Origin: Oceaniglobus roseus
Lineage (GTDB): Bacteria; Pseudomonadota; Alphaproteobacteria; Rhodobacterales; Rhodobacteraceae
Assembly (NCBI RefSeq): GCF_002869745.1
Contig: NZ_PNOS01000002.1
Coordinates: 62,001-126,000 of the forward strand
Direction of reading: 5' to 3'
DNA length: 64,000 bases
Shown: positions 42,178 to 43,753 of the stretch, piece by piece
Layout: every line of letters begins with the position of its first letter
Position numbering within the stretch: the first letter of the stretch is position 1
Translations under genes and position numbers: made by a program
Notes under the pieces: model-generated
What the model was told of the DNA's origin: nothing
What the model saw: only the letters and a program-made list of their open reading frames with translations
Databases searched by the model: none

Positions 42178-42801
42178 TCAGAGCAGCGCCTCGACCTCCG
42201 AGAGCAGCGCCGCCATCTCGTCTGTCGCCGCGCCCCTGCCCCGCTCCTGCACCCCGCGCCCGAGGCCCAGCGTCTCGGCATAGACGACGCGGTTGCCGAG
42301 CTTCGTCTCGGCCAGCGCCACGTCCAGGTCGCCGATCGCCGCCGTCACGTCTGTGCCGACGCGGGTGCCCGCCTTGAACCGGTTCAGCACCACCAGCGCC
42401 GTCTTCCGCTCGCGCGCGACGAGGTCCAGCACCGATTCCACCGCCCAGACATCCACCTGCGACGAGGCCACCGGAACGATCACCAAGTCCGAGATCTTGA
42501 GCGAGGGCCGCAGGTCCGCATCGACCTTCGGCGGCGTGTCGAGGATGACGATGTCGCAGGTCTTCTTCAGCTTCTCGCATTCATAGCCGACGCCCCAGGC
42601 GCTGGCCGTCGAGAAGTCCATGTCGGCGATCCCGTCGCCATGGCGCGCCATGAACCACCGCCCGAGCGATCCCTGCGGATCGGTGTCGAGCAGCGCCACG
42701 GACTTGCCCGCCCTGACGAAGGCGACGGCCAGATTCGCGGCGATGGTCGTCTTGCCCGACCCGCCCTTCTGCTGGGCCACGGTGATCACTTTTCCGGCCA
42801 A
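42178..42801 (-). CDS. Orphan ParA/MinD-type ATPase
   Basis: 207 residues. The deviant Walker A is QQKGGSGKTTIAANLA, with the signature lysine early in the loop, and Walker B-like VILDTPPKVDADLR follows switch region DTDPQGSLGRW. Small ParA proteins without a ParB partner position cargos such as chemoreceptor clusters (PpfA) or plasmids. No parB lies beside it. It is upstream of a methyltransferase gene on the same strand. Confidence 0.92.
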   Translation of the reverse strand: MAGKVITVAQQKGGSGKTTIAANLAVAFVRAGKSVALLDTDPQGSLGRWFMARHGDGIADMDFSTASAWGVGYECEKLKKTCDIVILDTPPKVDADLRPSLKISDLVIVPVASSQVDVWAVESVLDLVARERKTALVVLNRFKAGTRVGTDVTAAIGDLDVALAETKLGNRVVYAETLGLGRGVQERGRGAATDEMAALLSEVEALL

Positions 42802-42865: not shown

Positions 42866-43483
42866 TCACGGCCCGCTCCAGTCCACGTCCCCGGCCGGCT
42901 CGACCAGAAGCGTGCCCTCCGGCGCGGACCGGATCAGCTTGGCCGCCGCCGCTTCGTCGCCGTCGAGCCAGGCCGCCAGGTCGCGCGGCTCCAGCAGCAC
43001 GCCCATCCGGTGGTGATAGTCCCTCACGTCGCCCGAGGGCGCGCAGGTCACGGTGGCGACCTGCGGCACCGCCCCGCCGCCGGGCCCGCACCAGAGACCC
43101 GTGACCGCCGCGAACAGCAACGGCGCCCCGTCGACGCGGCGGATCCGCCAGGCCGTCTTGCGCCGCGCGGCGCCGGTCCACTCGTACCAGCCATCCACTG
43201 GCACCGCCGCCCGGCCAAGCCCGGCAAAGGCGGATTTCGCGAACAGCGTCTCGCCCCGCGCGTTGACGATGGTCTCCAGCACGGGCCGCCCCCGCGCGTT
43301 GCGCCGCCCCGAGGGGATCATCCCCCAGCGCATCTCCCGAAGCTGCCGCTCCGGCGTCACCACCGCCACCTGCTGCCCCGGCTGGATGTTCCGCCGCGGC
43401 GGCTGCGCGGGCAGTCCTGTCCGCAGGCCGAGCCATGCGGCGATCTCGTCGACGGGGGTGGTCAGGAACATGCGGCCGGGCAT
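42866..43483 (-). CDS. SRAP (YedK/HMCES) family protein lacking the catalytic Cys2
   Basis: 205 residues. The SRAP active-site residues Asn (TIVNARGET), Glu (DGWYEWTG) and His (YHHRMGVLL) are present, and WGMIPSGRRN is the DNA-binding loop. The canonical N-terminus is M-C-G-R, with Cys2 exposed after Met removal to crosslink abasic DNA; here it reads M-P-G-R-M-F, Cys replaced by Pro. The ATG used (43483) is the only start that gives the xGR motif. It has no good ribosome-binding site, so translation may be coupled or weak. Loss of crosslinking is expected. Confidence 0.88.
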   Translation of the reverse strand: MPGRMFLTTPVDEIAAWLGLRTGLPAQPPRRNIQPGQQVAVVTPERQLREMRWGMIPSGRRNARGRPVLETIVNARGETLFAKSAFAGLGRAAVPVDGWYEWTGAARRKTAWRIRRVDGAPLLFAAVTGLWCGPGGGAVPQVATVTCAPSGDVRDYHHRMGVLLEPRDLAAWLDGDEAAAAKLIRSAPEGTLLVEPAGDVDWSGP

Positions 43484-43753
43484 GGGTTCAGCATAGGAGC
43501 GCAACTGGTTTGCACAAAGACCTTCCGGCGCAATGGCGGCGTCGCCCGGCCTCTTTGCCACGCCCTCGCCGGTTCAGGGCAAGGGCAGCACCCGGGCGCA
43601 AGCGCAAGAGACCCGGGAACTGTCCGGCAGCACGCCCGGGGCGGGACATTTCCGCCCGGCACGCCCCGGACCGCGGCCACCGACGGCCCCGCCGCGCGTC
43701 CGCGCCGCTCGGGAAGGGGCCTCCCCGAAACGCCACGCCGCCGCTCCGCGCGC

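Follow-up and report, generated by a model that had tools for sequence, protein, structure and literature searches.

Here we describe a natural variant of the SRAP protein family, carried mostly by marine bacteria, in which the crosslinking cysteine at position 2 is replaced by proline and a partner residue at position 161 has changed with it. The variant was found in a window of 64,000 nucleotides of the Oceaniglobus roseus genome (Rhodobacteraceae; contig NZ_PNOS01000002.1, positions 62,001 to 126,000), and all positions below are those of the window unless a contig is named. Pro2 SRAPs form a conserved paralogous clade under purifying selection, and our analysis suggests that the variant cuts or transiently holds a damaged site and does not seal it. 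That these proteins are natural abasic-site (AP) lyases is our leading reading, which we hold at even odds.

In the known SRAP mechanism, Glu105 and His160 open the abasic sugar, the N-terminal amine forms a Schiff base, and the thiol of Cys2 then closes a thiazolidine ring, to which the crosslink owes its stability (PMC9436759). Another source describes Cys2 as absolutely conserved and as invariably occupying position 2 (PMC3765255). When the thiol is removed in the laboratory, the resulting YedK C2A makes no stable crosslink; it can be trapped by borohydride through its N-terminal amine, and its Schiff base has been trapped and solved. The rate constant for AP-DNA cleavage by this mutant is 0.05 and falls to 0.002 in C2A E105Q (25-fold) and to 0.02 in C2A H160Q (2.5-fold); YedK also reacts with the 3′ unsaturated aldehyde that lyase action produces (same paper). 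In the unrelated Fpg/Nei enzymes the nucleophile is an N-terminal proline: the crystal model of Nei2 begins at Pro2, P2A abolishes its AP lyase activity and P2C is inactive (PMC11323726). Cys2 defines the SRAP/HMCES mechanism, and a natural family without it suggests a second function of the scaffold. Among the papers that our searches of open-licence PMC listed, none was seen to describe a Pro2 SRAP.

Results

The window protein and its predicted fold

The gene encodes a protein of 205 amino acids (P0001) that begins MPGRMFLTT on translation and matches Pfam SRAP (PF02586) over residues 1-192 with E=3.2e-37 and 128.6 bits (cut-off 27.1). SRAP is the only Pfam family found in it at E<=0.001, Fapy_DNA_glyco being absent, and the PDB chains that it resembles in sequence are those of YedK and HMCES, at E of about 1e-9. 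The features of the gene are as follows.

42866..43483, minus strand: Pro2-type SRAP gene, 205 aa, ATG start at 43481-43483, stop at 42866-42868 (translation, Pfam SRAP)
43478..43480, minus strand: Pro2 codon CCC; the residue is Cys2 in all 228 other aligned SRAPs
43280..43309, minus strand: basic loop GRRNARGRPV, residues 59-68, clade-specific by the alignments (L201 is without the loop)
43262..43264, minus strand: Asn74 (VNAR), equivalent of YedK Asn75; present in 96/96 Pro2 proteins
43181..43183, minus strand: Glu101 (WYEW), equivalent of YedK Glu105; invariant in 324/324 aligned proteins
43013..43015, minus strand: His157 (YHHRM), equivalent of YedK His160; present in 96/96 Pro2 proteins
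43001..43003, minus strand: Gly161, which co-varies with residue 2; corresponds to YedK Pro164, the alignment being anchored on His160

The earlier note on this DNA, made from the letters alone, had remarked on an MPGR start combined with an intact active-site Asn, Glu and His, and all three are indeed in place as N74, E101 and H157. Where thiazolidine crosslinkers have Cys2, the window protein and the clade members that were read have proline.

Modelling predicts that the Pro2 protein has the SRAP fold. The AlphaFold2 model, built from an 81-row alignment of the window protein and proteins from named genomes, has a mean pLDDT of 92.3 and a pTM of 0.89; a Foldseek search with it returned 21 chains at E<=0.001, all of them solved SRAP structures, followed by a steep drop. 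VIA-align placed the model on 15 SRAP entries with Z of 20.1-24.3, including 8D2M, the Schiff-base complex of YedK C2A (Z 21.7), and 6NUA, the YedK crosslink (Z 21.6), over 192 residues, and residue 2 of the model aligns on residue 2 of both.

Proline 2 is not an artefact of start codon or sequence

A wrong start or a sequencing error that masks a Cys2 is virtually out of the question. The one point in its favour is that the window frame stays open 5′ of MPGR as far as a GTG at 43561 (MAKRPGDAAIAPEGLCANQLRSYAEPMPGR); the sole Cys codon in that open stretch is preceded by CTT, so no ATG, GTG or TTG start yields Cys2. Four synonymous codons encode Pro2 across 106 clade loci (CCG 65, CCC 27, CCA 7, CCT 7), and in 51 of the loci an in-frame stop lies 0-3 codons 5′ of the MPGR start, which fixes the position of the start in those loci. 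Moreover, 25 of 198 family genomes encode a Pro2 homologue, and Pro2 is present in all of the best 80 of 340 named-genome relatives. Both dangers had been raised in the earlier note. An alternative start giving Cys2 is absent from the window and is argued against by the upstream stops; a sequencing error is excluded by the MPGR homologues in the 25 family genomes; and we rejected both explanations.

A conserved clade beside an ordinary Cys2 paralogue

The window protein has matches in 154 of the 198 Rhodobacteraceae genomes. Clade members, at 51-65% identity to P0001, occur in 25 of them (its own genome, at 100%, counted in), and every one begins M-P-G-R, initiated by ATG or GTG; the other matches listed in the family genomes are 33-43% identical, and the N-termini read among these are Cys2 with the exception of one protein, L201, treated below. 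Named-genome carriers include Ruegeria, Phaeobacter, Shimia, Sulfitobacter, Marivita, Silicimonas and Maritimibacter, and all of the best 80 of 340 relatives from named genomes read PGR after the start codon (70 ATG, 9 GTG, 1 TTG), although these 80 were picked by likeness to the clade, so that 80/80 is no frequency. When a profile of the clade was run on 385 alphaproteobacterial genomes, only four scored 319-342 bits, all of them Rhodobacteraceae, the next score being 141 bits, and the 26 loci ranking after these four clade members are all Cys2. The clade is patchy, with a member in one of the six genomes examined from the window's genus; G001 and G003 have SRAPs that score lower and belong to a different kind. 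One carrier record (L074) is titled as a chromosome.

In a careful 46-row tree with residues 2 and 161 masked, the 18 clade rows are supported at 100/100, and in a quick tree with residue 2 masked, whose search was poor, a branch with an SH-aLRT of 100% sets 47 clade rows apart from the rest. Across 24 close clade pairs the median dN/dS is 0.15 (range 0.07-0.38). The earlier note had proposed that SRAPs with an MPGR start might form a clade and share their genomes with a second, Cys2-bearing paralogue, and this is borne out both by the tree and by an ordinary MCGR SRAP in 22 of 27 clade-bearing genomes, the window's genome included. In five carriers no MCGR paralogue was found. One of them, G068, has two SRAPs, both Pro2, and no Cys2 SRAP was found there; the second SRAP of G452 is divergent and MCNLYS-type, that of G176 is divergent and without a recognisable N-terminus (L361), and in G083 and G151, each 83% complete, no second SRAP was found. 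Three loci in this paralogue count (L006, L007 and L040) were unparsed at the N-terminus, L040 proving to be MPGR on inspection.

The ordinary MCGR SRAP of the window's genome (L001) lies at G000:C13:127399-128019, about 1.4 kb past the window end, on the same strand as the Pro2 gene and 22 kb from it.

Mobile elements were searched as well. In plasmid and phage collections tblastn matched 1242 plasmid and 24 phage records, every one below 60% identity, and among the matches listed (25 and 20) identity was at most 36%. Viral contigs yielded 32 loci, none of them a close clade member (26-42% identity), and each of the 31 viral sequences taken into the alignment has Cys2. A phage or plasmid origin was rejected since no close member was found there, with the reservation that the collections may lack records close to the window's genome.

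Residues 2 and 161 vary in step

The alignment set comprised 324 distinct SRAPs, mostly alphaproteobacterial and including the viral rows, of which a 245-row alignment is a subset; five match segments, L341, L238 and L137 among them, had been dropped for scoring below 60 bits or for an unaligned N-terminus, and two further loci, L359 and L360, were left out of the analysis. In the 324 SRAPs kept, position 2 shows just two residues, Cys (228 proteins) and Pro (96). Residue 161, which follows HxRM, is Pro in 227 of the 228 Cys2 proteins, whereas each of the 96 Pro2 proteins has Gly (86) or Ala (10) there, so that the two positions vary in step in 323 of 324. Asn74, Glu101, His157, Arg4, Arg76 and Arg159 are invariant in all 96 Pro2 proteins, L201 included. 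All but one of these Pro2 proteins (95) fall in a single clade, so the coupling alone could reflect one event. Our guess is that the change at residue 161 relieves a clash with the Pro2 ring.

The clade itself shows two further changes: Trp59 is lost (0/95), and an almost invariant basic loop, GRxNARGRPV, is gained. The loop is dispensable for the residue pair, since L201 has the pair without the loop.

Two proteins of the Cys2 group stand out. L301, from G109, is the sole Cys2 SRAP of the 228 without Pro161 (it has Ala, in HHREA) and is perhaps a step towards the coupling, perhaps an exception to it. L341 (G100:C41), which lies near a contig end and has no recognisable M-x-G-R N-terminus, is possibly a broken gene.

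A probable second origin of Pro2

The one Pro2 protein outside the clade, L201 (also recovered as L209; G068:C52:189807-190469), is a Pro2 and Gly161 SRAP in the usual Cys2 locus. Its identity to Cys2 orthologues from Rhodobacteraceae reaches 57%, that to the clade Pro2 protein of its own genome is 35%, and in the careful 46-row tree it groups with the family's Cys2 proteins at 89/93; none of 200 bootstrap trees (0%) unites all Pro2 rows. Upstream of it, on the same strand, lies a 5′-nucleotidase-like gene (named by eye). Among the other Cys2 loci of the family, 20 of 43 have such a gene in that position, its product 31-75% identical to the one beside L201; flanks of about 1.5 kb limited this count. 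Among the 19 sites that are at least 95% conserved in the 228 Cys2 SRAPs, L201 deviates at just 2 and 161, and of 15 sites at which the clade and the family's Cys2 proteins differ, it agrees with the Cys2 proteins at 11, with the clade at three (2, 69 and 161) and with neither at one.

On the careful 46-row tree, a single clade of all Pro2 proteins survived the AU test (p=0.328). In a quick 104-row tree the single-Pro2-clade constraint was better by 79 log units (p-AU 0.955), and since the constrained tree scored better, the search behind that quick tree was poor. Pro2 of L201 thus likely arose independently, a view that draws mainly on synteny and falls short of proof.

Genomic context

Directly downstream of the Pro2 gene the window carries one further feature:

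42178..42801, minus strand: ParA/MinD-like ATPase (Pfam AAA_31/CbiA)

A related ParA-like gene lies within 6 kb at 7 of 80 named loci, immediately downstream and on the same strand at five. A GDSL-lipase gene is found directly upstream at 30 of the 80, and 32 of 43 same-strand upstream genes terminate within 10 bases of the Pro2 start; other variable neighbours are an L,D-transpeptidase and CspA (by eye). Neighbour genes were called by our own heuristic, by which the SRAP gene itself was grouped in 58 of the 80 loci, and the six neighbour clusters to which Pfam gave an identity include no DNA-repair family. The neighbours vary and indicate no repair pathway or operon, and a functional partner by synteny was rejected.

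The LexA box of alphaproteobacteria is GTTC-N7-GTTC or GAAC-N7-GAAC. An exact box of this type was found within 250 bases upstream of none of 107 Pro2 genes and of one of 56 Cys2 genes, a result that says little on SOS control because 55 of the 56 Cys2 genes are also without a box.

Fpg-family genes (PF01149) occur in all 36 genomes surveyed, of which 18 carry the Pro2 gene and 18 do not. The idea that the Pro2 SRAP replaces Fpg was rejected on this count, and for the same reason nothing points to a need for a further lyase.

Discussion

What distinguishes the Pro2 SRAPs can be stated against three known systems. With the SRAP domain (PF02586) of YedK and HMCES they share the predicted fold, the catalytic Asn, Glu and His, the arginines of the NAR and HxR motifs and the M-x-G-R N-terminus; they differ in having Pro for Cys2, and so no thiazolidine route, in having Gly or Ala for the Pro after HxR[M], and, in the clade, in the basic GRxNARGRPV loop. 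The C-terminus differs too, being VNSNRA-type in Rhodobacteraceae Cys2 proteins whereas VDW-type residues stand there in the clade (by eye; sites 200-202). The laboratory AP lyase YedK C2A (8D2M) likewise has no thiol at residue 2 and keeps Glu and His, and its N-terminus aligns with theirs; the Pro2 SRAPs, however, are natural and conserved, offer a secondary rather than a primary amine, and couple residue 2 to residue 161. With the Fpg/Nei enzymes they have in common an M-P start and the secondary amine of Pro2 as candidate AP-site nucleophile, but the domain is a different one, and the glycosylase activity of those glycosylase/AP lyases is not expected.

Were the Pro2 SRAPs AP lyases, methionine aminopeptidase would expose Pro2, Glu101 and His157 would open the abasic sugar ring, and the secondary amine of Pro2 would form an iminium (Schiff base) with C1′. 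The thiazolidine could not close, because Pro2 has no thiol, and the iminium would be resolved through beta-elimination, the AP lyase step, or through hydrolysis, with a nicked or a free AP site in ssDNA as the outcome. Stable shielding would be left to the Cys2 paralogue, which might also cap the leftover 3′ unsaturated aldehyde.

The lyase reading is favoured because the residues used by the YedK C2A lyase are those kept in Pro2 SRAPs. Further points for it are the Nei2 precedent, the match of Pro2 to residue 2 of 8D2M and 6NUA in the fold model, and the coupling of residues 2 and 161, L201 included. The earlier note had suggested Schiff-base-like lyase or different chemistry, or non-covalent DNA binding; of these, the lyase idea agrees with the published chemistry, while the change at residue 161 and the Pro2 case of L201 do not figure in the note. 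A decayed pseudo-enzyme is disfavoured by the same retention of active-site residues in 96 of 96 proteins and by the median dN/dS of 0.15. Against the lyase count the identified neighbours, none of them from DNA repair, the patchy spread of the clade, the Fpg-family genes in all 36 genomes and, for what little it says, the lack of an exact LexA box. Against it stands, too, the point that conserved active-site residues would equally suit a protein that binds AP sites non-covalently. Such a binder or sensor of AP sites or ssDNA, in which Pro2 blocks crosslinking and abasic or 3′-overhang DNA is recognised without reaction, perhaps in competition with the Cys2 paralogue or in regulation of it, is somewhat unlikely and yet a serious contender. 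It would account for the retained arginines of the NAR and HxR motifs and for the MCGR paralogue in most carriers (22/27), and the loss of Pro161 could on this account be mere packing compensation for the Pro2 ring; it leaves Glu101 and His157, invariant in 96/96, without an evident role, and five of the 27 carriers showed no MCGR paralogue (two of them, G083 and G151, being the incomplete genomes).

The chemistry could also stop short of cutting. A labile covalent shield, whose Pro2 iminium mainly hydrolyses back and acts as a reversible cap with little beta-elimination, would fit the identical conserved active site and agrees with the thiazolidine being what confers stability on the SRAP crosslink; the nearest experimental proxy, YedK C2A, nevertheless proceeds to strand cleavage (PMC9436759 for both points), and we judge such a shield improbable. 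Farther from DNA, the N-terminal proline might act on a small carbonyl compound, an aldehyde or a ketone, either as nucleophile or as catalytic base. Tautomerases use an N-terminal proline (Pro1) as catalytic group in this way, and the identified neighbours of the Pro2 genes are metabolic, transport and envelope genes plus the ParA-like ATPase, but the SRAP-specific Asn, Glu and His and the arginines are all retained, and non-DNA carbonyl chemistry seems to us very improbable.

Going back to the lyase reading, a broader proposal is that two substitutions, Cys2 to Pro and Pro161 to Gly or Ala, turned a shield into an abasic-site cutter at least twice in Rhodobacteraceae; this we hold only tentatively and lean somewhat against. 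If true, it would add another, unrelated fold that uses an N-terminal proline as AP-site nucleophile, with the cutter working beside the Cys2 shield or, in G068, replacing it. The Pro2 family offers a direct test of shielding versus cutting, and a natural two-residue design for YedK or HMCES.

Other SRAP kinds

A third, divergent kind of SRAP, whose catalytic residues may differ, is represented by L006, L007, L362 and L364. L006 and L362 start with MCNLYS and are altered in the HxR and WYEW regions, and the N-terminus of L007 is unrecognisable. Six SRAP matches occur in a single alphaproteobacterial genome of 8 Mb (G560).
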